Source of the DNA: an uncultured Candidatus Hydrogenedens sp.
GTDB lineage: Bacteria; Myxococcota; UBA4151
Length of the DNA stretch: 37,898 nt
NCBI GenBank assembly: GCA_902574205.1
Contig: CACGMS010000011.1
Location: 1-37,898, forward strand
Direction: 5' to 3'
The position numbers were made by a program, and so were the translations under genes. This document shows positions 5,288-30,366 of the stretch, one piece after another; within the stretch, counting starts at the first letter, position 1, and every line of letters begins with the position of its first letter. The notes under the pieces were generated by a model. It saw only the letters and a list, made by a program, of their open reading frames with translations. It was not told the DNA's origin and searched no databases.

Positions 5288-5308
5288 ACACCCCCCGGAG
5301 GGGGAGAC

Positions 5309-9893: not shown

Positions 9894-11680
9894 AGCTAAT
9901 GCGTTGGGTGCCTATCGTTTGCCTCTGGATTCATTGCACGCCGATCCCTGATTTGCCGTTGTGTAATTTAGACGGTGTTATCGATGAAGGTGAAGAGTGT
10001 GATGACGGTAACTCTGACCCTGCCGACGCATGCACGAATCTTTGTCGGTTGGCGCGATGCGGTGATGGTGTGGTGCGCATTGATTTGGATCCAGGTGTTA
10101 CTGATTATGAAGCGTGTGAAGCGACTCTTGATAGTGACTGCAATTTGAGGTGTTCGTTTGATCGCTGCGGTGATGGTGTCAAAGATACGGATGAAGAGTG
10201 CGATGACGCGAATGATAACGACGCGGATGCCTGTCGTGGTAATTGTGAAAAGGCGTCATGTGGCGATGGAGTGATTCGTCTGGATAAACAGCCTGGTGAA
10301 ACCGGCTACGAGAGCTGTGACGATCAAAATGATAATCAAGAGGATGGATGTACGACGGCTTGCGATCGACATCGCTGTGGCGACGCCATCGTTCGTGCAG
10401 ATCGAACACCAGGTAGCCAGACGCCTTGCTCAGCGTCTTCAGATTGCGAAAGTCCCGAGGTGTGTCGAGATGGTCGCTGCTTAGATCCGCTTTACGAGGC
10501 TTGTGATGACGGTAATTCAGAGCCGACCGATAACTGCAGTTCGGATTGTTTGAGCGCTCGCTGCGGCGATGGTGTTGTTCGTGTCGATGTCGATCTAGGT
10601 AGTGAGACCGTCTGCCGACCCGGCGGAGATGATTGTGTAGTCGGTGAGCGCTGCGTAGCGGGTCGCTGTACCAATGAGTTGTACGAGTTTTGCGATGACG
10701 GTGAGTCGAGCAATAATGATGCATGTGTTGAGGGTTGTGTCTTTAATCGTTGCGGCGACGGTTTTTTACGTGAGGGACTCAACCCTGGTGATCAAGGATA
10801 TGAGGCTTGTGATGATGGGAATACCGAAGATGGAGATTATTGTTCGGCAGATTGTCAGCAAGTGACCTCGCAATGTGGCGATGGTGTCGTGGTGTATCCT
10901 AATGAGCGATGTGACGATGGGAACACATTGGATCTCGATGATTGCGGCGCTGATTGTCGCATTGATTTGTTGCCGGTCGAAATCCCGGCGGGTTGTTTTG
11001 AGCGCGGATGGGGCGCATCAACGGATAATGGACCTGCCCATCAAACCTGCATGAGCGCCTACAAATTGGATCGCAAAGAGGTTACCGTTGGCCGTTACCG
11101 TCAATTTTTAGAGACACACCCCGACTATCAACGTCCCGAAGGCTGGGTTGAAGAAATAGCTGAAAACCAGCGTTTTCAGGGTGATGAGCTCAAACCCGTC
11201 ACGCAGGTTGGGCGCGCAGATGCGCTTGCTTACTGCAACTGGCTGGATAAAACGCTACCCACCGAAGCGCAGTGGGAGTTTGCTGCTCGAGGGCCTGATG
11301 CGCACCCATATCCTTGGGGTGTATCGCCGACACCCAGTTGTGGTTATGCCGTCCGGCAGCTGGTTAATAGCGATCGTGATCCCGAGTTGTGCGCGCGCAG
11401 GGGTCAATGGAAACCACCTTGTTCAGCAACTGACGGCAACAATGCTCAGGGTATTTGTGACTTGATTGGTAATGTCCGCGAGTGGACACTCGATGGTTAT
11501 CGCTTTCAAGTGTATACAACCCAGATCGCTGAGGGGTTACCACTCAACGACCCCTTCGTCCCTTTTGAGGAGGGAATGGCAGGAACTCTGCGTGGGGATT
11601 TTGGCGCCGCTTACGTACGAGAGAACGGACGTAATCCGAGTTCGAGTATCGGGTTTCGTTGTGCAGAGGCGATGCCCTAA
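9890..11680 (+). CDS. DUF4215 (Myxococcus cysteine-rich repeat) protein with C-terminal FGE-sulfatase-like domain
   Basis: ATGA overlap with upstream gene; repeated 'CGDGVVR.D..PG...YE.CDDGN...D.C...C'; C-terminal VEIPAGCFERGWG..DNGPAHQTCMSAYKLDRKEVTVGRYRQFL..LPTEAQWEFAARG..GNVREWT..IGFRC is FGE-fold. Confidence 0.88.
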   Translation: MKLMRWVPIVCLWIHCTPIPDLPLCNLDGVIDEGEECDDGNSDPADACTNLCRLARCGDGVVRIDLDPGVTDYEACEATLDSDCNLRCSFDRCGDGVKDTDEECDDANDNDADACRGNCEKASCGDGVIRLDKQPGETGYESCDDQNDNQEDGCTTACDRHRCGDAIVRADRTPGSQTPCSASSDCESPEVCRDGRCLDPLYEACDDGNSEPTDNCSSDCLSARCGDGVVRVDVDLGSETVCRPGGDDCVVGERCVAGRCTNELYEFCDDGESSNNDACVEGCVFNRCGDGFLREGLNPGDQGYEACDDGNTEDGDYCSADCQQVTSQCGDGVVVYPNERCDDGNTLDLDDCGADCRIDLLPVEIPAGCFERGWGASTDNGPAHQTCMSAYKLDRKEVTVGRYRQFLETHPDYQRPEGWVEEIAENQRFQGDELKPVTQVGRADALAYCNWLDKTLPTEAQWEFAARGPDAHPYPWGVSPTPSCGYAVRQLVNSDRDPELCARRGQWKPPCSATDGNNAQGICDLIGNVREWTLDGYRFQVYTTQIAEGLPLNDPFVPFEEGMAGTLRGDFGAAYVRENGRNPSSSIGFRCAEAMP

Positions 11681-13140: not shown

Positions 13141-14783
13141 TAGGTTCTCCTCCAGTCAAACTTGGGTGTTGTGGGTTCACCAAAGCTTTGAAGCGCTCCG
13201 GTTTCTCCTACTGCATTCGGGCGTTGAAAGATCCAGTTCTGCCAAGCAGACAGTCGACCGAACACTTTTGTTTCAACCGTCTCTGCACCAGCAAAGCGAA
13301 GGTTCGCCTCCATTCCAGTCAATGCGTCAGGAGACAGGCTTGTTCGTTCTTCGATCGCTGGGCGGACTTCGTCGGGATAATCGATGTCGTCGAGCGCAAA
13401 GGTGACTAAGCCGACCTCTTCGGCTTCGATACCATAATAACGGCCTTGTTCCTCGGCGAGTGCGTGACCCGCTTTGGGGTCGTGAAGAAAGCGACAGCCG
13501 ATACGCGTCAACCCATTGGACATCGGCAGGCTGCCATTTGAGAGCGCTCCAATAGCGATACCATTTTCTCCTGCTTCGTCTTCGAGTAGATAGCTGCGAT
13601 CCGCTGCTAAGCCGAGCTCAAGTAAGCTGCCTGCAAAACAGCTCTCTTCTTCCATCAGCGCATAGAAGGATCGAGCGGTCAGGTCCAACCGGCGCAGAAC
13701 AAAGCCCATATAAAGTACGACTTCACGGATGAACCAATCGTTCTCTTTCAGTTCGTGGAGCTTGGTATCCATCGCGAGGGTGGCGTCGATATCGCCTTCA
13801 GTCTTGATCAAAACCGTTCCCACTTCGATATGGTTGAAGCGCAGATGAAGCAGTGCTTCGTTGAGCTCACGATAGGCTTTAAGGGCCCAGAAATTCTCGC
13901 CTAGCTCACGAATTGCTTCAGCCGTCAGGTCATTGATTTGATCAGCTGTTTGATGGGGAGAGCGCATGGTCAGTGTCGCTAACCGGCGATGCGACTCGAT
14001 CTGAAGATCAACGAATTCAAAGTGGTACCCTGTGTCGTCGTGATTAAACTCAAGAGCGGTCAGTTCGATGCCTTGTTCGGTTCCTGTCGCTGAACCCGCA
14101 GCCTGTTGAGCACGCTCGGCGATGCGCTCTTCGAAACGAGATAGAGGGACCGCTTCATCGACCAGTCGCCACGCTTTGGCTCGCTTTCCTCGAACGCCGT
14201 CCGAGAGTGTTGAAAAGACATCGGCGTGATCGCGGCGAACCTTTCGCTTGTCGACCACCCGGGTCAGACCACCGGTGCCGGGAAGCACCCCAAGTAATGG
14301 GACCTCTGGTAGACTCACAGCCGAGCGACCGTCATCAGCAAGAAGAATCTCGTTGGCGCAGACAGCGAGTTCGTAACCACCGCCTGCACAGACACCCCGC
14401 ACGGCGGCAATCCAGTGTTGACCAGATTGGTTCTGAGCATCTTCGATGGCGAAGCGTGTTTCGTTGGTAAACTTGCAGAAATTGACTTTGAAGTGATGCG
14501 CTGACGATCGGAGCATGAGAATATTGGCACCCGCACACCACACTTTGTCGTCATTTGCTCGTAGAACCACCACCGCCACACCGGGGTGTTCGAACCGAAG
14601 TCGCATCAAAAGGTCGGCGAGCTCGATATCAACGCCGAGATCGTATGAGTTGAGCTTGAGCTCATAGCCGGGATTGAGGGGTTGTTGTGGGTCGACCCCC
14701 ATCGTCACCGTCGCGATCGCTCCATCAACGTCGAGCGACCAATGGTTATAGGTAGAAGGATGGCGCTGAAAGGTAATGCTCAT
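13140..14783 (-). CDS. boxC: 2,3-epoxybenzoyl-CoA dihydrolase BoxC (enoyl-CoA hydratase superfamily)
   Basis: MSITFQRHPSTYNHWSLDVDGAIATVTMGVDPQQPLNPGYELKLNSYDLGVDIELADLLMRLRFEHP..VWCAGANI..GVCAGGGYELA. The ORF is open to 14858; the start is uncertain among 14783/14816/14858. Confidence 0.93.
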   Translation of the reverse strand: MSITFQRHPSTYNHWSLDVDGAIATVTMGVDPQQPLNPGYELKLNSYDLGVDIELADLLMRLRFEHPGVAVVVLRANDDKVWCAGANILMLRSSAHHFKVNFCKFTNETRFAIEDAQNQSGQHWIAAVRGVCAGGGYELAVCANEILLADDGRSAVSLPEVPLLGVLPGTGGLTRVVDKRKVRRDHADVFSTLSDGVRGKRAKAWRLVDEAVPLSRFEERIAERAQQAAGSATGTEQGIELTALEFNHDDTGYHFEFVDLQIESHRRLATLTMRSPHQTADQINDLTAEAIRELGENFWALKAYRELNEALLHLRFNHIEVGTVLIKTEGDIDATLAMDTKLHELKENDWFIREVVLYMGFVLRRLDLTARSFYALMEEESCFAGSLLELGLAADRSYLLEDEAGENGIAIGALSNGSLPMSNGLTRIGCRFLHDPKAGHALAEEQGRYYGIEAEEVGLVTFALDDIDYPDEVRPAIEERTSLSPDALTGMEANLRFAGAETVETKVFGRLSAWQNWIFQRPNAVGETGALQSFGEPTTPKFDWRRT

Positions 14784-14868
14784 TCGGGTTCCGTGTGTCT
14801 GATGACTATGGCTCATTGCCTCGACAAGGAGGGGTTTACCAAGCATTATGAAGCGCATTTGATATCCG

Positions 14869-14884
14869 TATAGTGAGAACTATA
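14869..14884. promoter_or_regulatory. Inverted repeat TATAGT-GAGA-ACTATA in the boxC/boxR divergent region (candidate operator)
   Basis: Perfect 6-bp dyad with 4-nt spacer immediately upstream of the boxR ATG (14885). Direct repeats GCATT(N7)GCATT at 14843-14859 lie on the boxC side. Confidence 0.35.
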
Positions 14885-15754
14885 ATGCCTATTGGCGTAA
14901 GCAGTGAGGATCTCGGTCGTCGGGTTCGTCGTTTGAGGCAAGAGCGCGGCTGGTCTGTTCTTGCTCTTGCCGCAGGCGCATCCTTGTCTTCACGATATGT
15001 TATCGAAGTCGAAGGTGGTCGCGCCAACCCGACGCTCAAGGCACTGGATCAACTTGCTCAAGCCTTTGAGTTGAGTGTCTTTGATTTGTTGCCGAAGCCG
15101 CTTGCCGGGGGACCGCGCCAGCGTATTGATCGTATTTTAGAACGCCGAACTTTTGATGAATTACAAAATGTTGCGCGTGAACTTGAGTTACGCTTTGAGC
15201 AGCGCCACCGTCGTTTAGTTCTTTTATTGGGTGTTCGAGGAGCAGGTAAAACAACGATTGGCCGGCAGTTGGCAAATCGGTTGGCGATGCCGTTTGTTGA
15301 ACTCGATGATCGGGTTGAAGCGTATTCAGGTCTACCTGTTGCTGAGCTCATATCCGTTTACGGTGAGCGTTATTATCGACAGATCGAACATCAGTGTTTG
15401 GCTGAATTACTGGTTGAAGATCAGCCGGCTGTAGTCGCCGCAGGGGGAGGTGTTGTCGAGCACCTACAAAGTCACGATCTCATTCTGCGCTGCGCGTTGA
15501 GCGTTTATCTGAGCGCTCGTGCCGAAACCCTTTGGACTCGTGTTTTGGACCAAGGTGATAATCGACCGATGTCAGGCAGCGAAACGGCTCTTGCTCAATT
15601 GCGCTTACTTTTGGTTCGTCGCGAGCCGCTTTATGCGAAAGCTCAAATTCGGTTGGTTACTGATGGGAGAATGCCTTCACGCTTGGTTTCGGATTTGGTC
15701 GAAGAAATCCAACTACTGCGCGCGGATAGTGCTCAGTTACGCCAAGGTCTATAA
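14885..15754 (+). CDS. boxR: BoxR-type transcriptional regulator (XRE HTH + shikimate-kinase-like domain)
   Basis: N-terminal HTH (LGRRVRRLRQERGWSVLALAAGASLSSRYVIEVEGGRANPTLKALDQLAQ) fused to a shikimate-kinase fold (LLGVRGAGKTTIGRQLANRLAMPFVELDD); divergent to boxC-boxB. Confidence 0.9.
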   Translation: MPIGVSSEDLGRRVRRLRQERGWSVLALAAGASLSSRYVIEVEGGRANPTLKALDQLAQAFELSVFDLLPKPLAGGPRQRIDRILERRTFDELQNVARELELRFEQRHRRLVLLLGVRGAGKTTIGRQLANRLAMPFVELDDRVEAYSGLPVAELISVYGERYYRQIEHQCLAELLVEDQPAVVAAGGGVVEHLQSHDLILRCALSVYLSARAETLWTRVLDQGDNRPMSGSETALAQLRLLLVRREPLYAKAQIRLVTDGRMPSRLVSDLVEEIQLLRADSAQLRQGL

Positions 15755-18677: not shown

Positions 18678-19737
18678 TATCAACGTGCTCACCAAAGCGC
18701 GCATGAAGACCAAAAGGTGTAGCCCACCAACCTAAGCAAGGCTCGATACAGGCCAAAAAATTGCGTAGATATTTTGGGTCGTTGAGGAGATCTTCACCTG
18801 CGGCGGTAAGCGTTTGGCATGGGACTCCTGGGAGTTCTCCGTGAAGATTTTGGCTATCGATGACGGTTCCTTGATCAGAGCAATGGATAATGCATCCATG
18901 GAGGTTATCGAGTGACGCATCGGGCGGGAGAAAACGTCGTTGAGCGCTGCTGCTGACGCCGACGATGCCCTCAAGACCTGCCGCTCCAACCAAGGTTCCA
19001 GTGTCTTGACTTCCAGTCTTGCGCGCCCGAAACGCAATTCCTGCTCGGCGAGCCCAAGCGACAGCGTCGGCATGAAGCACCTTCGCGCCACCTCGCGCCA
19101 GGGCTTCTAGTGTACCAAATCCTATTTCATCGAGGAGTTTAGCATCGCTGACACAGCGCGGGTCAGCGCTGAAAACACCATCAACATCAGAATAGATTTC
19201 ACAGTGATCAGCACCCAGAGCAGCCGCTAAGGCAAGCGCCGTAGTATCGGATCCACCCCGTCCGAGTGTGGTAATTTCACGTTTGTAACTCATGCCTTGA
19301 AAACCAGCGACAATGACCACGCGACCCCGTTTGAGTTCGTCTTCCACACGGATCGGTCGAACATCAATAATGCGTGCATCAGTGTGGACGTCGTTGGTGA
19401 TGATTCCACATTGCGATCCTGTAAAACTTAGCGCTTCGATGCCGCGATCAGCGATCGCCATACTCAGTAAAGCCATGGTCACACGCTCGCCGGTCGACAA
19501 CAACATATCGAGTTCCCGACGTTTCGGGTGGTCCGAGATTTGTCCTGCGAGCTCAATCAATGCATTGGTCGATCCACCCATCGCAGAAACCACAACAACC
19601 AGTTTATTTCCTTGGCGGACACGCTCGACAACCGTATCGGCGACGCGTTGAATAGCGTGCGCGTCAGCCAACGATGATCCACCATATTTCTGGACAACGG
19701 TGGGGTGATTGGGGTCGAAGGTACTAGGGGCAGTCAT
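18634..19737 (-). CDS. lysC: Aspartate kinase, C-terminal regulatory region atypical
   Basis: [84 protein letters not shown]. Start ATG at 19737 (ORF open to 19803). Confidence 0.9.
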
Positions 19738-20257
19738 GTTTAAATCCATCTTACGTACGATCGATAAGCCAAAAGGCGCCGCCCCGCTACCGTTAGCACT
19801 CATTGATTTAATTGCGGTTAACGCCGTCGTTCAAGCCGCGGCAATTGGTTATCTCTCGGCTCTGTTTCGGCGCGATTGGTTTGCACCGGTTCAGGGCATC
19901 GTGATGCGTTTGGTCTATCCCATCATCACGGATTTAGTGGTCTTGGCTGTTCTGGGTCTGTTGCTCAGCGTCTTAACGCGGGTCAAATCGGATGAGAAAG
20001 CCACGCGGATCGATCGCTTAATTGCAGCCGGAACGCCGCTTTGGTTAGGTTATGCGTTGGGTCTAATTTGGCTGCGTATTGCCTATGTTTTCGCCAGTTT
20101 ACCCTCGACCCGAGATGCCTTTTTCTTGCCGCTTTGGGTCTTTGATTACGTGCCTGTTTATCGTGGCGTGACTGAGTTGACACGATGGCACCCTGAGCAC
20201 TGGACAATCGCCCTGATCTTTGTGGCTCTTTGTGGGGGGGGGAGGGTGGCTTTATAG
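19736..20257 (+). CDS. Polytopic membrane protein; probable N-terminal part of a gene split at a G9 tract
   Basis: [36 protein letters not shown].. several TM segments; ends shortly after a G9 run (20234-20242) while the hydrophobic segment continues in the adjacent frame. Confidence 0.6.
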
Positions 20258-20831
20258 CCGCTCAAGCGAGGATCGAACACGACGGCTGCATCAGGCCTTT
20301 CGAGTGAGTCTAATCATCGCTTTGCTGTGCTCTGCACCGGTCGCCTGGCGAGCGCATTCGAGTTGGCGCCCTGCGGTTGCCGGAGACCTACTCGTTGATC
20401 GCTTAGTAAAGACCCCTGAAATCGATGCTTCGGATTGGCTCCCAAAGGGCCTGCGTGGCCGGACTACTTTGGTGGAGTTTTGGACGACTTGGTGCGGCGC
20501 CTGTAAGCGTTTATTGCCACAGCTCAATCAACTCAAAGAGTCGATCAAAGACCCTGAATTTGAGATGCTTCTGGTCAACGTTGAGGGGCGTGGTCAACCC
20601 ACCCCTCAATTGTTAGATAAAGTGAGAAAATACAAAGCTGAAAGAGCACCGAAGTTGAAGGTGCTTGTCGATCGAGGTGCGTGGTCTGATGCGGTCGGAA
20701 TTACCGTCTATCCAACCTTGGCTTTGATCGGTCCCGATGGTCGCTTGATTAAGCTTTGGTCAGGGACCCCCAATATGGACGCCGTGGAGCGCTTGATTAG
20801 GAGCTCGTTAGAGAGTGCATTGCGGCTTTGA
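20220..20831 (+). CDS. Thioredoxin/TlpA-like domain protein; probable C-terminal part of the same gene
   Basis: TTLVEFWTTWCGACKRLLPQLNQL (WCxxC), VTVYPTLALIGPDG-type cis-Pro loop (ITVYPTLALIGPDGRLIKLWSG). Nominal TTG start lies inside the upstream ORF. Confidence 0.8.
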   Translation: MWLFVGGGGWLYSRSSEDRTRRLHQAFRVSLIIALLCSAPVAWRAHSSWRPAVAGDLLVDRLVKTPEIDASDWLPKGLRGRTTLVEFWTTWCGACKRLLPQLNQLKESIKDPEFEMLLVNVEGRGQPTPQLLDKVRKYKAERAPKLKVLVDRGAWSDAVGITVYPTLALIGPDGRLIKLWSGTPNMDAVERLIRSSLESALRL

Positions 20832-20875: not shown

Positions 20876-20885
20876 ACCTATTGTG

Positions 20886-21173
20886 ATGAATTCTGACGAT
20901 ACCCACCAACGCGTGCCGGTGATCCCTGATGGGGTAGCTTGGCGAGCCTATGATGGTGAGGTGTTGGTGGTGACCGGTGAAACCGCACAACTACGTACTT
21001 TGAGCGAGGTTGGAAGTTTCGCCTTTGAACGCTTCGATGGTCAGGCTACACTACAGTCAATCGCTCAGGCGATTAGTGACGAATTTGATGTGACAGAAGA
21101 AACCGCTTCAACTGATTTGACCGCGTTTGCAGAGGATTTGCATCGGCGTGGATTGATCGCTTGGGCGGATTGA
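20886..21173 (+). CDS. PqqD-like RiPP recognition element (RRE) protein
   Basis: Small PqqD-like winged helix: IPDGVAWRAYDGEVLVVTGETAQLRTLSEVGSFAFERFDGQATLQSIAQAISDEFDVTEETASTDLTAFAEDLHRRGLIAW. Confidence 0.85.
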   Translation: MNSDDTHQRVPVIPDGVAWRAYDGEVLVVTGETAQLRTLSEVGSFAFERFDGQATLQSIAQAISDEFDVTEETASTDLTAFAEDLHRRGLIAWAD

Positions 21174-21184
21174 AGGAGAAACGC

Positions 21185-24100
21185 ATGCTTCGGCTTGCTC
21201 CCATTCGCGCTTTAGCAGGCGCCGCTTTACTTGGAACCCTTAGTCTTGGCGGTTGTGCCTGCGAGGAAACACCGACCAACATTGTGGGTTTAGCTTTTGT
21301 TTCGCCAAACCCGGGCTCGCGCATTCAGGTGACGGATGATCTCGATCCGAATACGCCGGGAGTCCAAGTGGCATTTAGGCTTCGAGCGGTCGGACTCAAC
21401 GCAACGGATACGGCAGCCACGGTCAGTCTAATCAATAAGAGCGACGTCGATGGAGTGGCTGCGGAAGCGGTTTTGGTCGGTAACGGTACCACGAAATCAG
21501 CGTCGTTTGATGCCATCACGTTGGTGAGTGGAACCAATGAGATTGAAGCGACGCTGACTCAAACCTTTGGCTCGAACAAGGTAACCACCGCCAACTTCTC
21601 TGTGGTTGCGCCGGGTGGTCCAGCTTGCCGCTTTACCCAAGCGCCGAACGGTCCGGCGCTGAACTCTGGTGCAACGTTGACCGACGACCTTGATGTCATC
21701 AACGCAGGGTTTCAAACCCATGTCGGGGTGGCGTGCGACGGTGAAGGTGTTGTTGATGGTTTGACCGTCGGTTTGAATGTAGCAGGCGCTGCTTCAGCCT
21801 TGTCCGGAACCCTACAAGCCGGTTCAGTCGTGTTTAACAATGTGAGCTTACCCGAAGGCGCAGCTCGACTGACGACGTATGTTGTGTTGGGTCAGGACCA
21901 AGCTGGAACGGCGAGTCTTGACCTCGTTGTTGATACCGGTCGTTGCGACGTCTCGGTTACTTCTCCCGCGAATGGCGTGCCGATTTTAGCGGCTGATGAT
22001 GCGGATCCGTCGACACCAGATGTTGCCGATGTAGACATCGTCATTGCATCCTCACGTTGTGGTTCAGGCTCGACAGTTACGATTCCCGTCGGTGCGGATT
22101 CGTTTTCAGGAGCGATCGGTGAAGATGGTACGGGTACCGTACGTATTGCGCTGACCCAAAGCAGCGACAACCAAGACCTGAAAAGCTTTACGGTTGTGGT
22201 TTCGGATCAGTCGGGTTCTCGTAATCAGGGCACATCCTTGCTTCAGGTTCATCTGGTGGACACCATCGCGCCATCGATCGAGGTGGTAGGCCTAGCTGCT
22301 GACAGTACAACGGTGCTTACGGCTGCCGACGATCAAGACGAGAACCCGCTCGATGAGTTGACCTATCGAGTGCAGGTACGACTGACTGACTATGCCGATG
22401 TTGCCCTTGTCTTTGCCCGGGTGGGTGATGACGAAGCCGGCGTGGTATCAGCCGCTCCGAATGAGCTTGGTATTGCAACAATGGATGTGCGTTTGCCGGC
22501 GGGTAATCAAACCGTGACGGTTTATGCATCGGATGCAGCAGGTAATCAAACGAGTGTTGCGCGTCAGGTCGAAGTGGACATCACAGTACCCGTGGTGACG
22601 TTGCTTCAGCCAGCGCAATCGGGTGCGGTGCTGGCGAACGCTGACGCCGACCCGCAAACCGAAGGTTTTCAACTTGACTGTTATGTCTCGATCGAGAATT
22701 TTTCGACCATCTCGACGCTTGATCCCCGAGTGTTTTGCGAACTGCAAACTTTGGATGATCAAGGTAACGCCACAGGGCCTTGGGTTGCGAGTGCTCTTGC
22801 TGAGCCCGAAGCGCGAGAGGGCGACATAGGTGTTGGTGGTGTACGCCTAACCTTGCCGGATGGGCAGTGGGGTATCCGTGCCGGTGCGGTGACTCGTGGG
22901 GGTACTGGCAATCGAGCGGCGCCTTCTGATCCGCTCAACCTCAATGTCGATGGTACGGTGCCAACGATTGCTTTTGCGAGCCCGACAAACGGGTCGGTCA
23001 TCAATGCAGGAAATGCCAATATTGAACTCGCGATTACCGATGCAGAGGTCGGTCAGCCGGTCTCGGTCTCGGTCGATGGTGCTCCGGCGCTTAATCCGGC
23101 ACCAACCGTTGATCAAAACGGTCGAGCTTTGATCGAGAATGTCGTGTGGGCGGACCGAGATGGGACGTACACGTTGACTGCCGATGTTTCCGATGCGGCA
23201 GGTAATCCGGCGACTCAAGCATCGATCAGTGTGACTGTGGACTCGACGCCTCCTGTCGTGACCTTGCTTGGTTTGGATGGGAGCGCCGAAGGCAGTGTGC
23301 GCGATATTGTTGCTGACGGGATCCTTAATGCCACACAGAATATCAATTTGGATTGGGGAGCTGATGTGAGCAACGGCTTCCAATATGGTTTCCGCGTGGT
23401 CGTACGCAATGAGCCAGTTGGGCAATTGGTTGCCTTGCGCTTGAATGGTGCGCTGATCAACGGCGTAACGGTAGATGATAATGGCGCTCAAGTAGCGAAC
23501 TTTAATAACAACAACAACGGATTCACACTGCTTGAGGGGGTCAACACGGTTTCGGCAACCGTGATCGATAATGCGGGCAACACAGCATCATCAACGGCGA
23601 CCTTAACGGTCACTACAGGTCAACCCTTTGTCCGGATTTTAGCCCCCGCAGACGGGTCTCGAACCAATGCAAATCAAGTGGCGGTAACGGCGTCCAGTAA
23701 TGCCGCTGACGGCGCAACGTGTTCGCTAGTAGCGAGCCTTCAAGGGCAACAAGATGTCTCCGCTAATGCGAATGCCGGAGGCGATGGAGCGATTGATTTT
23801 GGAACGCTCAACCTCGCTGCTGAAGGCTCTTGGTCGTTGGTGGCAACGTGTCCTTACCAGGGTCGCGACCCGGTGAACTCGGCGGCGTCAACAGTGATTG
23901 TCGATCAAACCGCGCCGGTGCTCACATTCACAGGAGTTCCGCAGGTCAATGGCGAGAATGTGTACACGCTGGCGGATGAGCCAGATTCGACGCTCAATAA
24001 CCAGTACAGAAAAGATATTGTCGTGTCGGCAGCAGCGAACGGTGTGTGCACGGTTGAGGGGGTTAATCCCACGGCTTTATTGACGATTACCGGCGGTAAT

Positions 24101-27100
24101 GTTGGTCAAAACGATGTGGTTCGGACTCGCTTTACTGCAGGGAATGATTGCAGCTTTACGTTTGAAAATTTGGCGCTTGCCGATGAAGTGAACGATCCGA
24201 ATAGCTCCGTGAACTTGGCGGTCTCAACCGTTGATTTGGCAGGCAATCAAGGGGTAGCCAGTATTGCCTTGGTTGTGGATCGCGTTGGGCCGACGGTGGT
24301 GATCGATCAACCCGTTACGAACGCAATCTTATCCGCTGATGACGATGCAAACCAAGCAAGTCCGAATGTACAGTACGATGTGCAGGCGACCGCCCGTGGA
24401 GCGGTAGGTGTGGCACAGCTGCAGGTGGACGGACAAAATGTAGCACAACGAAATGTTACTGGTAACGGCAGCGTTGAGTTTGATAATGTGAGTTTTGCGG
24501 ATGGAACACACACCGTGCGCGTTTCAGGTGTGGATAACTACAACAACACAGGTTTTGCTGAGTCGACCAATGTACGCGTCGACGGCAGCGCGCCGACGCT
24601 GACTATTTTTACCCCTGGAAACAACCAACTCTTTGGAGCCAATGACGATTCGAATCCGCAGCTCGGTGGTTTTCAAACTAACGTGTCGATCACGATCCAA
24701 GGGGTCGAAAACGGAACACAAATTCAGGTCTTGGTTGATGGAGTACAAGAGGCTACCGGGGCGGTTGCTGGAAACTTTACTTCTATTCCCAATGTCCCGC
24801 TGACAGAGGGGACGCGCGAGATCACCGTTCGTGCTAGCGATGGGATTAACACGGCGACCGCAACTGTATCTGTGACGGTTGATCTTACGGCGCCGACAAC
24901 GACCGATTGCGTCTTTGCTGGGGACGATGGACCAAACGCCGGGATCTACACGTTTAATGTTGCCGAGGATGGTGACGGGCAAGCTGCTGGTTGGCAGGGG
25001 ACCTGCGCAACCACCGTAACTGGTGGTCAAGACGGTTCGGTCGTGCGTGTAGTGAGTAATAATCCCGCACCAAACACTGTGGTCGGTTCGGCGGTGTTGC
25101 AAAATGGTGCGGCAACCGCATCGATCAGCCTTCCCGACGGCAGTCATACCCTGACGATTCAGGCCACTGATGAAGCGGGCAATGTCAGCGCCGCGGGTAT
25201 TGGTCAGGTTGCTCGCGTCGATACCGTCGCTCCGGTTGTTTCCCTGACCTCGCCGGCTAACGGGGCATTCCTCTTGGCGAATCAGGACGGGGACAACGAA
25301 ACACCGGGTCTGCAATTCACGGTCGCCGCTTCGAGCGATGCTGAGGCAGGTACATCGATTGTGTTCAATGCAAACGATGCGCAACTCGGGACGAATGTGA
25401 TCGAAGGCGGAGCCGGTTCGGTTGTTGCAACCCTACCAGAGGGGTCGGTGTCGCTAACGGCTGTGTCGACGGATCAAGCGGGTAATTCGACAACGAGTGC
25501 TGCCGTTAGTGTGACGGTCGATTCACAGGCGCCGACAATTGCAATTACCAGCCCGGCGGCGAATACAGAACTTGGTGATAACGATGACGTCGATGAGGGT
25601 TTGATCGGTTTTCAAACGAATATTTCTGTCACGACGGGTCAAGTCGAAAACGGGCAACAAGTGAGTGTTCGAAGTACAGTTGGCGGTGAGCGCTGCAGCG
25701 AGGTAACGAGTGGCGCTCTTTTAACGATGCGCTGTACGTTACTTGAAGGTGCACCACAAACACTAACCGCTGTCGTATCCGATGCAAATGGAAACGAAAC
25801 CACAAGCGCTGGTGTCGTCATCAACCTTAACTTGCAGGCGCCAACCCTCATTTTTACAACACCGAATGTTAATCCAGCGAGACTAAATTCGGGTGATGAT
25901 GTCGATGGCGCCGAAGGGTTTCAATACACCTTTGTGCTGACTTCGGATGCAGATGGTCAAACGGTAGAGTTATCAGATGATGGTAACGCTATTGGTACTG
26001 GTGTGGTTGCCAACAACAGCGTGACCATTGGACCCGTGACCTTATCTGAGGGGACCCATCCGATCCGAGCCTCGGTGACTCAGAACAATAATACGGCGCA
26101 AACCGACCTGAGCGTTATTGTTGACGTCACAGCACCAACCATTGCTTTGAATTCACCAGCAGTAAGTCCAGCAACTTTTGCGGTTGCTAATGATCAACAA
26201 GCAGGTGCTCCGCTCAATACGAGTTTTGGGTTGCAGATCACTGGAGCCATTGGAGGGACACTGAGTGCTCAGTCAACGCAGACGGCAACGTTGGGTACTG
26301 TTGCCGTCAACGCAGACGGTGTGGTGACCATCACCGGTGCTACGCTTCAAACTGGGGTTACTCATGAGATCACCTTTACCGTTACTGATGAGGCGGGGAA
26401 TACTGCAAGCGTCGAATTGCAAGCTGTGGTTGATGTTGTTGCACCGAATGATTTAGCGATCACCGCAACGCCTCAAAACAATCGCTCGGGGACTGTGCGC
26501 TTGAATTGGTCTGAGTCAGGCGATGATGCCGATCAAGGCGTGGTCGCTGGTTATCAAGTCCGTTACAGCGAAAATGTAATTAATGAGGATAACTTTGGAG
26601 CCGCTACCCAAGTCCAAGAAGCGATTAACCCCGTAGCTCCAGGCAATGCGCTTCAAGTCGATGTTGCGGGTTTACCCTTTGATAATGCGAATGTGCGCAT
26701 TGCCGCTCGAGCGGTTGATGATGTGGGTAATGTCTCGGCGGTAGCAGGCGGGGCATTAGCTACTGTCGATTTATCCCTCAATTCGTCAATTAAAGCAGCG
26801 GCGGGCTCTGGCACTGACTTTGGTTATGATTCGTGTTCTGGTGATTTCAACAACGATAATCGTGCCGATTTGGTGCTTGGTGACTATAAGAATTCCAACA
26901 ATACGGGTGCGATTTGGATTTTGATGGGTAACGCGAACATGGAGAATGCTACGCTTACCCGCCGTCTCGGTAATGCTGCGGGTGATTATTACGGTTTTGC
27001 TTGTGCAGCGGCCGACTTCAACGAAGACGGTTTTGATGATCTAGCTGTGGGAGCGATTGGACCTGCCGGTTTCAATGGGCAGGTCTATATTTATCGAGGC

Positions 27101-27946
27101 TCAGCTAATGGTGTGTCTGAAACACCGGTGGCGACCATCACCGGCACCGGAAATACAGGCACCTTTGGTGCAGCGATTTCGGCAGGTGGTTCAGTGGTTG
27201 GTGATGGTACGGTTGATTTAGCCATTGGTGCCGGTTTCGCCTCGGGTCAGGCGGGTCAAATATGGGTCTTTGATGGTGACAACCTGACGGGGAACCTAAC
27301 CACTGCAGGTGTTCCTACTATTACGGGTCCGGCGGGGAGTCGATTAGGAACCAATGTGATCATCGGCAAAGATGTGACCGGCGATGGCCAAGCGGATTTG
27401 GTGACTGGTATGTGGCGCTACAACGGTATCGATGGTGGATTTTTGGTGATTGCAGGGCCGATCACAGATTCGGCGCTAACGTCAGCGCACCCGAGCGCGA
27501 CCTTGATTCCTGGTTCAACAGGTCGCCGAGTGGGGATCTATTTGGCTGTGGGCGACGTGGACGGAGACGGTGGTATGGATATTTTAGGTGCTACGGCGCG
27601 ATTTGGATATCAGGTTCATGTCTATCATGGCGGTCAAGCGCTCGATACAACTCTTGATCGTATCATCAGTCGACCGCCTGGCGTTGATACCAACTACTTT
27701 GGTGTTATCGACGAAATGAGCATCTGTGATATTGACGGTGACGGGGAGGATGAACTCTTTGTCGGAGGTCAAAATTACTCATGGTTGTTTGACCATGCCG
27801 CGTTAACGGCGACGCCCATGCGAGCCTATGATGACGGTGTAGGGTATATACACCCTGTATGCTACGGGGATGCAGATAATAACCAACAACGAGATTTTGC
27901 TATTATCGTGCGTAATGCAGACGGAAGCGTGATACTCAAACATTAG
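21185..27946 (+). CDS. Giant (~2250 aa) lipoprotein with tandem bacterial Ig-like domains and C-terminal FG-GAP/integrin-alpha-like propeller
   Basis: SD AAGGAG then ATG; lipobox LSLGGC (GCACEETP); repeated 'TVDxxAPxxxxxxPANGxxL..DDxDxxxxGFQ' and 'DxAGN' units; C-terminus with DFNNDNRADLVLGD, DFNEDGFDDLAVGA, DVTGDGQADLVTG, DIDGDGEDELFVGG. Confidence 0.9.
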   Translation: MLRLAPIRALAGAALLGTLSLGGCACEETPTNIVGLAFVSPNPGSRIQVTDDLDPNTPGVQVAFRLRAVGLNATDTAATVSLINKSDVDGVAAEAVLVGNGTTKSASFDAITLVSGTNEIEATLTQTFGSNKVTTANFSVVAPGGPACRFTQAPNGPALNSGATLTDDLDVINAGFQTHVGVACDGEGVVDGLTVGLNVAGAASALSGTLQAGSVVFNNVSLPEGAARLTTYVVLGQDQAGTASLDLVVDTGRCDVSVTSPANGVPILAADDADPSTPDVADVDIVIASSRCGSGSTVTIPVGADSFSGAIGEDGTGTVRIALTQSSDNQDLKSFTVVVSDQSGSRNQGTSLLQVHLVDTIAPSIEVVGLAADSTTVLTAADDQDENPLDELTYRVQVRLTDYADVALVFARVGDDEAGVVSAAPNELGIATMDVRLPAGNQTVTVYASDAAGNQTSVARQVEVDITVPVVTLLQPAQSGAVLANADADPQTEGFQLDCYVSIENFSTISTLDPRVFCELQTLDDQGNATGPWVASALAEPEAREGDIGVGGVRLTLPDGQWGIRAGAVTRGGTGNRAAPSDPLNLNVDGTVPTIAFASPTNGSVINAGNANIELAITDAEVGQPVSVSVDGAPALNPAPTVDQNGRALIENVVWADRDGTYTLTADVSDAAGNPATQASISVTVDSTPPVVTLLGLDGSAEGSVRDIVADGILNATQNINLDWGADVSNGFQYGFRVVVRNEPVGQLVALRLNGALINGVTVDDNGAQVANFNNNNNGFTLLEGVNTVSATVIDNAGNTASSTATLTVTTGQPFVRILAPADGSRTNANQVAVTASSNAADGATCSLVASLQGQQDVSANANAGGDGAIDFGTLNLAAEGSWSLVATCPYQGRDPVNSAASTVIVDQTAPVLTFTGVPQVNGENVYTLADEPDSTLNNQYRKDIVVSAAANGVCTVEGVNPTALLTITGGNVGQNDVVRTRFTAGNDCSFTFENLALADEVNDPNSSVNLAVSTVDLAGNQGVASIALVVDRVGPTVVIDQPVTNAILSADDDANQASPNVQYDVQATARGAVGVAQLQVDGQNVAQRNVTGNGSVEFDNVSFADGTHTVRVSGVDNYNNTGFAESTNVRVDGSAPTLTIFTPGNNQLFGANDDSNPQLGGFQTNVSITIQGVENGTQIQVLVDGVQEATGAVAGNFTSIPNVPLTEGTREITVRASDGINTATATVSVTVDLTAPTTTDCVFAGDDGPNAGIYTFNVAEDGDGQAAGWQGTCATTVTGGQDGSVVRVVSNNPAPNTVVGSAVLQNGAATASISLPDGSHTLTIQATDEAGNVSAAGIGQVARVDTVAPVVSLTSPANGAFLLANQDGDNETPGLQFTVAASSDAEAGTSIVFNANDAQLGTNVIEGGAGSVVATLPEGSVSLTAVSTDQAGNSTTSAAVSVTVDSQAPTIAITSPAANTELGDNDDVDEGLIGFQTNISVTTGQVENGQQVSVRSTVGGERCSEVTSGALLTMRCTLLEGAPQTLTAVVSDANGNETTSAGVVINLNLQAPTLIFTTPNVNPARLNSGDDVDGAEGFQYTFVLTSDADGQTVELSDDGNAIGTGVVANNSVTIGPVTLSEGTHPIRASVTQNNNTAQTDLSVIVDVTAPTIALNSPAVSPATFAVANDQQAGAPLNTSFGLQITGAIGGTLSAQSTQTATLGTVAVNADGVVTITGATLQTGVTHEITFTVTDEAGNTASVELQAVVDVVAPNDLAITATPQNNRSGTVRLNWSESGDDADQGVVAGYQVRYSENVINEDNFGAATQVQEAINPVAPGNALQVDVAGLPFDNANVRIAARAVDDVGNVSAVAGGALATVDLSLNSSIKAAAGSGTDFGYDSCSGDFNNDNRADLVLGDYKNSNNTGAIWILMGNANMENATLTRRLGNAAGDYYGFACAAADFNEDGFDDLAVGAIGPAGFNGQVYIYRGSANGVSETPVATITGTGNTGTFGAAISAGGSVVGDGTVDLAIGAGFASGQAGQIWVFDGDNLTGNLTTAGVPTITGPAGSRLGTNVIIGKDVTGDGQADLVTGMWRYNGIDGGFLVIAGPITDSALTSAHPSATLIPGSTGRRVGIYLAVGDVDGDGGMDILGATARFGYQVHVYHGGQALDTTLDRIISRPPGVDTNYFGVIDEMSICDIDGDGEDELFVGGQNYSWLFDHAALTATPMRAYDDGVGYIHPVCYGDADNNQQRDFAIIVRNADGSVILKH

Positions 27947-27955
27947 GATAAATCA

Positions 27956-28108
27956 ATGAGTGATAAATCAAACAAATTAAAGGGCGTTCAAGAGAACAAA
28001 GACGTTCGTAAACCATACATCAAGCCACATATCGTTGGAGAAGAAATAGTTGTTCAAGATGTCCTCGCTACGACGCCAGTCGCTGGTCAGCCTGAAATTT
28101 TTTGCTGA
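27956..28108 (+). CDS. 50-aa candidate modified-peptide (RiPP-like) precursor, not in the supplied ORF track
   Basis: Translation MSDKSNKLKGVQENKDVRKPYIKPHIVGEEIVVQDVLATTPVAGQPEIFC*. AGGA SD overlaps the upstream stop (TTAGGATAAATCAATG), 9-nt gap; YxxP motif as in RRE-bound leaders; flanked by PqqD, HprK-like, radical SAM and S26 peptidase genes. Confidence 0.75.
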   Translation: MSDKSNKLKGVQENKDVRKPYIKPHIVGEEIVVQDVLATTPVAGQPEIFC

Positions 28109-28916
28109 GGACCAACCTTTTCTCGTTGGTGATTTGAGCCTTCGGCTTCGGCTTTTGGGAGCGGACGAGGACTCGGTTGCAGACGCCCAGCTGTGGTTGG
28201 ATGATTACCAATCAACTGATGGTGGTGAACACGACTGGCTGATTGAGACATCGATTTGTGAGCAAGCGTCTGGATTGTATGGTAAACAGTGGCAAACGGG
28301 CGGTATTCAGTTAGATAATTTAGTCATTGATCACAGCGAGAAAAGAGTAAGCTTTAACGTACTAGAAAGTATGTACCGGCTGGGTCGTTGGGGGGTTCCC
28401 TTTGCCTTTCATTATAGTGTTTTGGGTGGTTTAGTAGCGATTTGCAGAGGTCAGAGTCAAAGGCGTGTCGTGCATGCCGCGGCGGTGGCTTTGAACGAGG
28501 ATGAAGCCATTATGATTACCGGCCCGAGCGGCGCAGGGAAATCATCGTTGAGTCGAGTACTGGGCCCTAAACAACTTGGGGATGAAGTGATTTTAACCTC
28601 GGTCGAAGATGATGGAATTTATGTTGCTGGAACGCCGGTTCCGGGTGAGCTTCGAGCCGTTGATACGCGTAAACGAAAGCTTCGAGCGATTCTTATTCCG
28701 GGTGTTCAAAACTCCGATCAGATGATGCTGCGTCAACTCAAAGGGGCGGAGGCGCCAAGCCGCCTTGTGCACACGACCGTTCGACTCCAAGGCGATGATT
28801 TCAACCCTGATTTAGAATGGTTTGACGCGGTATTGAGCGCAACACCTATGTACGAAGTGAGTTGGTCGAAAATGAGGGATTTTCCGCGCCGTCTACTCGG
28901 TGAGGTGTTGGCGTGA
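28050..28916 (+). CDS. HprK-related (HPr kinase-like) P-loop kinase
   Basis: VVHAAAVALNEDEAIMITGPSGAGKSSLSRVLG (Walker A), LTSVEDDGIYVAGTPVPGEL. TTG 28050 (SD GGAGAAG at 28037) or ATG 28059 start; overlaps the peptide ORF out of frame. Confidence 0.85.
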   Translation: MFKMSSLRRQSLVSLKFFAEDQPFLVGDLSLRLRLLGADEDSVADAQLWLDDYQSTDGGEHDWLIETSICEQASGLYGKQWQTGGIQLDNLVIDHSEKRVSFNVLESMYRLGRWGVPFAFHYSVLGGLVAICRGQSQRRVVHAAAVALNEDEAIMITGPSGAGKSSLSRVLGPKQLGDEVILTSVEDDGIYVAGTPVPGELRAVDTRKRKLRAILIPGVQNSDQMMLRQLKGAEAPSRLVHTTVRLQGDDFNPDLEWFDAVLSATPMYEVSWSKMRDFPRRLLGEVLA

Positions 28917-29974
28917 CACACGTGAAGCCACCTCGATTAAGTGCGCTGAGTATCATGGTGACCGATCGTTGCGATCAGGCCTGCTCCTTTTGTTATTCAA
29001 AGTACAAACCAAGGACCGAACTCAGTTTTGAAAAGATTGTTTCTGTCCTTGATCAAGCAGCCGACTTAGGCGCTGTGTGGTTAGTTGTCACTGGAGGTGA
29101 TCCGTACCGAAGGCGTGATTTGCATGCGATTTTGCAAGCGGCTCAAGAGCGCCGGTTTGCGGTGACGCTCAAGACACATGGTATGCATATTGATCAAGAC
29201 GAAGCGCAGCGATTATCTGATCTCGGTGTGCAGCGCGTGGATTTGAGTGTACACAGTCGTGATCCGCAAAAACATGACGCCGTGACCCGTGTTCCCGGCT
29301 CGCACCGTCGAACAATTGCGGCGTTAGAGGCTCTAAAAAACGTCGGCATTAGGGTGAAATCATCGTTGGTGGTGACGTCAAATAATGTCGAGGATGTCCC
29401 TGAAACCTTATCGATGTTGGTCGAGAAATCAGCCGTGAATGTTGGATTTTCAATGGGGCCTTCATTGACGGGATCTTTGGATCCACAAAAGCAACAAGCA
29501 CAGGGTGAAGCACTCATCCGCGCCCGCATGGCGGTGCTCAATCATGGGCCGCATTCAGGATGCGTTCCTGAAAGTTATCCGCGACCCGGTGATCAAGACG
29601 TGCCTTGTCAAGCCGGTCGAGGATTGGCTGCAATTTTACCCGATGGTAATGTGACGCCTTGCGAGGTTTTCCCGCTTATATTGGGTAATATTCATGAAGA
29701 GAGTTTAGCCAGTATATGGTCCGGTCAAGCGGTCCAGCCGCTTCGGGACTCGAGTTACAAAGACCATAAAGAATGCAGTGGTTGTGAAGCGCAAGGATAC
29801 TGTAAGTTCTGTCCCGGTTACTCGTACAGTGAACGCGGTGACTGGCGAAAAGCTTCTCGTTCGCATTGTATCCCTGCTTATGCGCTCAAAGAAGCCGTTC
29901 GACGGATCCAAGTGGAAAAGACCAAAGGCGATAAAGAAGTCAATCAACCCGCTGCGGTCTCTCGGTCGGCATAG
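28913..29974 (+). CDS. Radical SAM/SPASM peptide-maturase-like protein
   Basis: CX3CX2C (CDQACSFC), VTGGDPYRRRDL; SPASM-type C-terminal cysteines (CVPESYPRPGDQDVPCQAGRGLAAILPDGNVTPCEVFPLILGNI..CSGCEAQGYCKFCPGY..SHC). Confidence 0.92.
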   Translation: MTHVKPPRLSALSIMVTDRCDQACSFCYSKYKPRTELSFEKIVSVLDQAADLGAVWLVVTGGDPYRRRDLHAILQAAQERRFAVTLKTHGMHIDQDEAQRLSDLGVQRVDLSVHSRDPQKHDAVTRVPGSHRRTIAALEALKNVGIRVKSSLVVTSNNVEDVPETLSMLVEKSAVNVGFSMGPSLTGSLDPQKQQAQGEALIRARMAVLNHGPHSGCVPESYPRPGDQDVPCQAGRGLAAILPDGNVTPCEVFPLILGNIHEESLASIWSGQAVQPLRDSSYKDHKECSGCEAQGYCKFCPGYSYSERGDWRKASRSHCIPAYALKEAVRRIQVEKTKGDKEVNQPAAVSRSA

Positions 29975-29976
29975 CC

Positions 29977-30366
29977 TTGAGTGTGATTTATCGAGTGCGA
30001 GGATACTCGATGTTTCCGACACTTTTACCCGGCGATCATTTAATTATTGTTGCGAATACAGAGGTCAGGATTGACGATATTGTTGTCTTTGACCGTCCGA
30101 ACATGCCGTCTGCTGTGCATCGAGTAATCGAAATTAGCGGCGATGAGTTGCATACGCGAGGCGATACATCAGCAATTGCTGATGGCTGGATTCATCGACG
30201 CGAAGTGACGGGTACGGTCGTTGGCGTTCATCGGTTTGGCCTGCGCATGCCTTTGATACCTTGGCGCTTGGTGCGTTGGCTGAGTTACATTACTCGACCA
30301 TTACTTTGGCGTTATTATTGGCTGGTTGCCTCGGTAAAGAGGTTTCTCGCTAAAGCTCATCGCTAA
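29977..30366 (+). CDS. S26 signal-peptidase-like protein (SipW/ER-type, candidate Ser-His catalysis)
   Basis: RVRGYSMFPTLLPGDHLII..DDIVVFDRP..AVHRVIEISGDELHTRGDTSAIADGWI; no strong N-terminal TM. TTG 29977 or GTG 29983 start. Confidence 0.82.
   Translation: MSVIYRVRGYSMFPTLLPGDHLIIVANTEVRIDDIVVFDRPNMPSAVHRVIEISGDELHTRGDTSAIADGWIHRREVTGTVVGVHRFGLRMPLIPWRLVRWLSYITRPLLWRYYWLVASVKRFLAKAHR

Follow-up and report, generated by a model that had tools for sequence, protein, structure and literature searches.

A conserved short gene in Myxococcota very probably encodes the precursor of a ribosomal, enzyme-modified peptide beside a giant lipoprotein

Linear polyphosphorylated peptides (LPPs; Nat Commun 2026) provide experimental precedent for the binding of a YxxP leader by an RRE, phosphorylation by an HprK-like kinase and leader cleavage by an S26 peptidase, a combination reported in 2026 as restricted to Bacillota (PMC13381572). 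LPP leaders follow the consensus YxxPxVLxHQxIxFETxxS and are cut after Tyr+15; in LppB, D70 forms a hydrogen bond with the leader Tyr and F74 packs against the Pro, the phosphoserine S3 of the precursor lies at Tyr+18, and Ser-to-Thr variants are not phosphorylated by LppK (PMC13381572). HprK-like kinases also tailor paeninodin lasso peptides (PadeK/ThcoK), acting on a core Ser (PMC9266682). Our searches of family libraries, solved structures and papers found no earlier description of the gene system analyzed here.

The window, that is, the whole stretch of DNA that was analyzed (37,898 nucleotides), is an entire contig (G000:C11) of a 2.02-Mb, 60%-complete MAG. This genome shares its genus with the Myxococcota MAG JAPKCE010000291.1 and its family with the Myxococcales MAG PBND01000079.1. 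The operon genes all lie on one strand, in the order usual at the related loci: a PqqD-type RRE, a giant Ig/FG-GAP lipoprotein, the peptide, an HprK-like kinase, a variable tailoring enzyme (rSAM/SPASM in the window) and an S26 peptidase. Adjoining genes touch or overlap at the PqqD/giant and kinase/rSAM junctions, and the 3' end of the peptide gene overlaps the kinase start. The window operon encodes no exporter. The features of the operon and of the genes just upstream are as follows.

19709 to 20257, forward strand: small membrane protein, upstream and possibly a separate gene (ORF; marginal Pfam matches only)
20220 to 20831, forward strand: TlpA/ResA-like membrane-anchored thioredoxin with WCGAC (Redoxin 7e-11, TlpA 8.5e-13)
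20883 to 21173, forward strand: PqqD-family protein, predicted discrete RRE (PF05402, E=1.7e-13); overlaps the start of the giant gene
21161 to 27946, forward strand: giant lipoprotein of 2261 aa (Big_13 7e-29, FG-GAP 9e-21)
27945 to 27948, forward strand: Shine-Dalgarno-like AGGA, read from the sequence, 7 nt before the ATG
27956 to 28108, forward strand: precursor peptide gene, 50 aa, ATG to TGA, kept in 53 loci
28016 to 28033, forward strand: leader motif Y21-I-K-P24-H-I26, predicted RRE-binding site
28070 to 28075, forward strand: T39-T40 (Tyr+18/+19), which the HprK-like kinase is predicted to phosphorylate
28103 to 28105, forward strand: C50, the last residue of the peptide, a Cys on which the rSAM/SPASM enzyme is predicted to act
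28059 to 28916, forward strand: HprK-like P-loop kinase (PEPCK/HprK fold), starting at ATG 28059 or TTG 28050
28913 to 29974, forward strand: radical SAM/SPASM maturase with CxxxCxxC (PF04055 5e-24, SPASM 1e-13)
29977 to 30366, forward strand: archaeal/ER-type S26 signal peptidase of the Ser-His type (TIGR02228 3e-10, PF10502 7e-7), predicted to be the leader peptidase

The giant protein carries a GGC lipobox, tandem Big_13/Ig-like domains and C-terminal FG-GAP (integrin-type propeller) repeats, and shows N-terminal homology to the giants of other loci; its true start may be ATG 21182. Upstream of the PqqD gene, the thioredoxin is 41% identical to a protein kept at the same place in a same-family genome (G002, L008), where a single 353-aa ORF, L008:14509-15570(-), combines membrane and thioredoxin parts at the position equivalent to 19709-20831. 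A frameshift split of one membrane/thioredoxin gene in the window was considered but found no support, as the G002 protein aligns with the thioredoxin half alone. The membrane protein and the TlpA-like thioredoxin (19709-20831) may give redox control for Cys-containing cores. Elsewhere in the window, an unrelated cluster (2444-11680) encodes a subtilase (PF00082), a PEGA-domain protein, an FGE-sulfatase/DUF4215 protein and a large protein (5309-7420) that has no Pfam match.

A sequence-only reading of this DNA had proposed a 50-aa ORF at 27956-28108 with its own ribosome-binding site, a Y-x-x-P-x-I motif resembling RRE-recognized leaders, and a tail with TT and a terminal Cys as possible kinase or radical SAM targets. 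We found the ORF exactly as given, AGGA at 27945-27948 overlapping the TAG stop of the giant gene (27944-27946), and Y21, P24 and I26 in the motif. T39-T40 and C50 are likewise there, and kinase and radical SAM both remain plausible as modifiers of these residues, since a nucleophile is always present in the core stretch where the TT lies and the window type of rSAM is accompanied by cores with Cys. The position of the single C-terminal Cys is not conserved, and the two nearest relatives, from the same genus and the same family, have cores without Cys; the idea of a conserved Cys was dropped as it stood. No Pfam or NCBIfam family matches the peptide of the window or those of its relatives.

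A kinase search led to the same-genus genome (G001) and the same-family genome (G002). The window kinase alone as query gave no match in a scan of the genome contigs, and a three-row kinase alignment returned only these two known relatives. Both encode a giant, then a short ORF, then the kinase and S26 peptidase, with no rSAM. Their short ORFs, MNESNTTDSSIVKSSPSEKMARAYTRPTIIRCVSIIQDALASDGPPHPPGEGD and MAEEKKEEGRAPRLPTKERVPYFRPEVISEQELTQDVLLSESK, share the leader Y-x-x-P-x-[IV]...QD[VA]L with the window and differ in the core. Matches to a kinase profile and to a profile of the giant C terminus were often adjacent. The wide kinase profile by itself marks these loci poorly, with HprK-like proteins in 115 of 195 genomes, many of them in other contexts, and the FG-GAP profile by itself also matches unrelated proteins. 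Twenty loci were taken for their kinase or giant matches, not for a peptide, making 24 with the first four; a short [Y/W]xxPx[V/I/L] ORF lies just behind the giant in all 24 of these loci, chosen by giant and/or kinase. A profile built from 22 peptides then gave 35 matches at E<1e-5 across 195 Myxococcota genomes, about 30 of them no more than 1.5 kb from a kinase match of the independent search (manual count). In total, 53 peptide loci were counted by hand in 51 of the 195 genomes and 15 families; this search covered Myxococcota, many of whose genomes are MAGs, and peptide starts were set by eye. The check that the sequence-only reading had proposed, a conserved short ORF at the same position in related loci, thus came out positive, with ORF and leader motif kept across 15 families, and supports the precursor interpretation. 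The rest of the system, with a giant lipoprotein encoded between the RRE and the precursor, had escaped that reading.

Further analysis showed that the gene is real. A motif ORF lies within 100 nt of 46 of 46 giants of at least 1000 aa, a set in which some loci had been fetched by the peptide profile, compared with 2 of 583 other ORFs of at least 300 aa at these loci, and such an ORF arises in 0.9% of the downstream regions after shuffling; the place of the motif ORF behind the giant is therefore not due to chance. In the synonymous/non-synonymous comparison that had also been suggested, of the changes counted in the pooled independent close pairs, 56 were synonymous and 44 non-synonymous, the expected synonymous share being 24% (p = 9e-12), so that the reading frame is under purifying selection, and dN/dS of the peptide was 0.03-0.47 in all but one uninformative pair. 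The six pairs are relatives outside the family of the window, whose own members are too divergent for this test. An SD-like 4-mer precedes 48 of the 53 peptides in a permissive test. A giant or a fragment of one stands before the peptide in 50 of the 53 loci; the fragments (345-551 aa) look like giants cut by a contig end or a frameshift. The giants are mutually homologous over their N-terminal 260 aa, and 41 of the 46 full-size giants have a PqqD gene no more than 400 nt away. The kinase is present at most peptide loci and missing near a few (L144, L146, L158 and L159), and S26 was not detected at every locus.

Several loci depart from the common arrangement. L137 and L139 read rSAM, peptide, kinase, S26, with the rSAM gene and not the giant directly before the peptide, and in L139 PqqD stands in front of these genes; L163 reads PqqD, rSAM, kinase, S26, with no peptide recognized. 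L155:11469-11985 holds two tandem class-C precursors (ERMALACTGSF... and ERLALACTGSF...) and has neither a giant nor a kinase near them, and L156, the second locus of the same genome, has two consecutive rSAM genes. At L012:11009-12210(-), the rSAM gene is split into two ORFs, probably by a frameshift or an assembly error. L011 (7946-9973 and 11267-11446) holds a different YxxP, kinase and rSAM arrangement: an HprK-like kinase and a Radical_SAM protein follow a gene pair of the glycosyltransferase/WecA-like kind, and a lasso-like YEPPRLEKRRALVRATLFSGQSS peptide lies downstream of them. One genus (f13 g39) has a related but separate peptide family, MKKTEQ...YQPPRIVKKRAVSRATLFTGSGPDGGGVIGSG, in several copies per genome, with no giant recognized adjoining. 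Its members are as follows.

L147:8079-8297, L148:2105-2353, L149:290-466, L150:7568-7735 and 10206-10370: multi-copy peptide family of f13 g39
L154:12264-12857 and 14762-14929, L162:2921-3097: further members of the same family

Across 47 non-redundant peptides, the leader is strongly conserved and the core C-terminal to it is hypervariable. Position +0 is Tyr in 45 and Trp in 2, +3 is Pro in all 47, and +5 is Val, Ile or Leu in all 47. A Ser, Thr or Cys falls somewhere in Tyr+18 to +20 in every one of the 47, and no other three-residue window is as strongly enriched; most other such windows in the core and mid-leader hold a nucleophile at a frequency of about 0.2-0.6, and the SE-rich leader stretch from +6 to +9 reaches 85%. 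Tyr+18/+19 corresponds to T39/T40 in the window, and Tyr+18 is Ser in both G001 and G002, the core of G002 being only about 6 residues long. Because several peptides at loci with the window-type rSAM end in Ser or Thr, paeninodin-like phosphorylation of a C-terminal Ser was considered; it was rejected, given that the window peptide, its closest relatives and most other classes have no terminal Ser/Thr.

Among 46 PqqD homologues, the Asp equivalent to LppB D70 is found in all 46, window included, and the Phe equivalent to F74 in 45, again including the window, which strengthens the reading of the motif as an RRE-recognized leader; at the position of N33, 18 homologues have Asn, 25 including that of the window have Ser and 3 have another residue. 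The nearest PDB entry to the window PqqD is 9x8z, a PqqD family protein. The window kinase has a Walker A motif, GPSGAGKS, and a weak HprK_rel_A match, and H139 and G174-D175-E176, which we take to be the HprK His and the catalytic acidic pair, are invariant in the three kinases of the window and its two closest relatives. A low-confidence model of the kinase (pLDDT 55.6) has Foldseek matches to PEPCK and HprK/P, which share a fold; the model is weak because its input was limited to the window and related-locus sequences. Five aligned S26 proteins from these loci keep SM..P and VHR, presumably the Ser-His arrangement of archaeal/ER-type signal peptidases.

The core type follows the tailoring enzyme. 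All 12 loci with the window type of rSAM/SPASM enzyme have a core Cys, often in FERxxLxC, none of the 8 loci with a YydG-like rSAM does, their peptides ending in a [FY]GPxRxxPRR-like (GP-R-PP) stretch, and at all 15 loci with a GNAT acetyltransferase the core contains at least two Cys. The difference between the two rSAM types has a Fisher p=8e-6, a value that ignores the shared ancestry of loci. The pattern also holds inside families: in f4, five loci with the YydG-like rSAM lack Cys and one locus with the window type has it, and in the window's family the window has both rSAM and core Cys and two relatives have neither. The closest relatives of the window rSAM among fetched ORFs are from other giant-peptide loci, and its nearest solved structures are SkfB and PqqE.

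Together, these results make the 50-aa ORF very probably a RiPP-type precursor. We consider it quite probable that it encodes the precursor of a ribosomal, enzyme-modified peptide belonging to a Myxococcota family of systems whose logic is related to that of Bacillota LPPs. The discrete PqqD RRE (20883-21173) would bind the YIKPHI leader and present the core (about LATTPVAGQPEIFC), a predicted binding step with strong indirect support. By analogy with the described systems, the kinase would phosphorylate core Ser/Thr (T39/T40 in the window), the rSAM/SPASM enzyme would work on the Cys-containing core (C50 in the window) and the S26 peptidase would cut the leader off some 15-16 residues after the Tyr. 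The product may then act, with the cell surface as the most likely site, together with the giant Ig/FG-GAP lipoprotein that the operon also encodes. Counted against this explanation are the Thr at Tyr+18 in the window, which LppK rejects in place of Ser, the two relatives in the window's family with no rSAM at the locus, the very short core of G002, the gaps in kinase and S26 at some loci, the lack of an exporter in the window operon and the low pLDDT of the kinase model. At somewhat less than even chances, we tentatively extend the proposal to a phylum-wide new class, in which a RiPP that is phosphorylated or crosslinked works with, or joins, an Ig/FG-GAP surface lipoprotein of giant size (about 1,500-3,000 aa). 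The genes for precursor and RRE would lie on either side of the giant gene in one operon, and lineages would swap SPASM rSAM, YydG-type rSAM and GNAT enzymes together with the core.

The absence of a Pfam or NCBIfam match could fit a chance or non-coding feature of an intergenic gap, a reading of negligible probability that is refuted by the 53 loci, the purifying selection and the control counts. A lasso-peptide-like precursor, with cyclase and B2 peptidase elsewhere in the genome, would account for the [Y/W]xxPx[L/V/I] leader and discrete RRE, which are lasso hallmarks, and paeninodin lasso peptides are themselves tailored by HprK-like kinases (PMC9266682). It is nevertheless very improbable: the B2 family PF13471 has no match in the 60% complete genome, no asparagine-synthetase-like cyclase or B2 gene was recognized among the window ORFs around the operon, and inspection of 47 cores found neither a conserved Gly/Ala/Ser/Cys at residue 1 nor a conserved Asp/Glu at ring position 7-9. 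On the evidence available, the window peptide is not a lasso peptide.

The constancy of the giant raises the question of whether the peptide, instead of being released as a modified metabolite, could serve the giant as an accessory subunit (a sorting signal, an assembly factor or a short structural partner, for example), with PqqD, kinase and S26 modifying it so that the giant can be exported or assembled at the surface. The giant is the most constant neighbor (50/53 loci) and homologous over its N-terminal 260 aa, and the window operon has no dedicated exporter, all of which fits; yet hypervariable cores matched to differing tailoring enzymes resemble RiPP products, and in L137, L139 and L155 the peptide occurs without a giant behind it, two of these loci having kinase, rSAM and S26. 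We regard this subunit role as unlikely. Rather unlikely, too, is the view that the locus is a true LPP cluster that merely extends LPPs from Bacillota to Myxococcota. The discrete RRE, HprK-like kinase, archaeal-type S26 and YxxPx[V/I/L] leader are common to both, and the nucleophile lies at the identical Tyr+18 position, but no NTP transferase or MsbA-type ABC transporter lies near the window genes, the leader is closer to VxSExxLVxxLF or FERxxLxC than to one with HQxIxFET, the Myxococcota loci additionally have rSAM or GNAT enzymes and a giant lipoprotein, and LPPs are stated to be Bacillota-restricted (PMC13381572).

The preferred reading, a modified peptide made by LPP-related logic, would place the combination of RRE, kinase, S26 and YxxP leader in about a quarter of the sampled Myxococcota genomes, in a system with interchangeable tailoring enzymes, a constant giant surface lipoprotein and precursors that no Pfam or NCBIfam family covers. 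The conservation of the giant beside the peptide suggests a surface or cell-contact role rather than that of an ordinary antibiotic.

Compared with known systems, the locus has the general features of a RiPP cluster, namely a short ORF with conserved leader and variable core and a co-encoded RRE and modifying enzyme. Like the HPr-rel-A system (TIGR04352 kinase, TIGR04353 PqqD), it pairs a PqqD-family protein with an HprK-related kinase, but the window scores lie far under the cut-offs (22.1 versus 200 and 15.7 versus 35 bits). With sactipeptide systems (SkfB, StsB, AlbA), it shares a SPASM rSAM and a Cys-containing core, and the StsB model matches at 2.7e-29; all scores are far below the family cut-offs, however, the window core has a single Cys, and the Myxococcota system has a discrete RRE, a YxxP leader and a kinase. 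Sactipeptide-type chemistry is possible at loci with the window type of rSAM. The RRE with Y/WxxP leader and the HprK-like kinase recall paeninodin-type lasso peptides, from which the system differs in having no B2 protease or lasso cyclase found and in the predicted kinase target, at the start of the core here and at the C terminus in the paeninodin type. The likeness to LPPs is the broadest and comprises a discrete PqqD-type RRE, an HprK-like kinase (here with a P-loop and, on the low-confidence model, a PEPCK/HprK fold), an archaeal/SipW-type S26 leader peptidase (TIGR02228 3e-10, below the curated cut-off, with SM and HR motifs), a YxxPx[V/I] leader, a nucleophile at Tyr+18 and a variable C terminus. 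In contrast to LPP clusters, which have an NTP transferase and an MsbA-like transporter, neither of which was found among the window genes around the operon or recognized as a conserved neighbor cluster in the first relatives, the Myxococcota system has an rSAM or GNAT instead of the NTP transferase, a gene for a giant Ig/FG-GAP lipoprotein placed between those of RRE and precursor, and a leader without the HQ and FET of LPPs. Since the Myxococcota system lacks both the leader consensus of LPPs and their NTP transferase/transporter pair, we do not file the Myxococcota system as an LPP; by analogy, it would nonetheless work like one.
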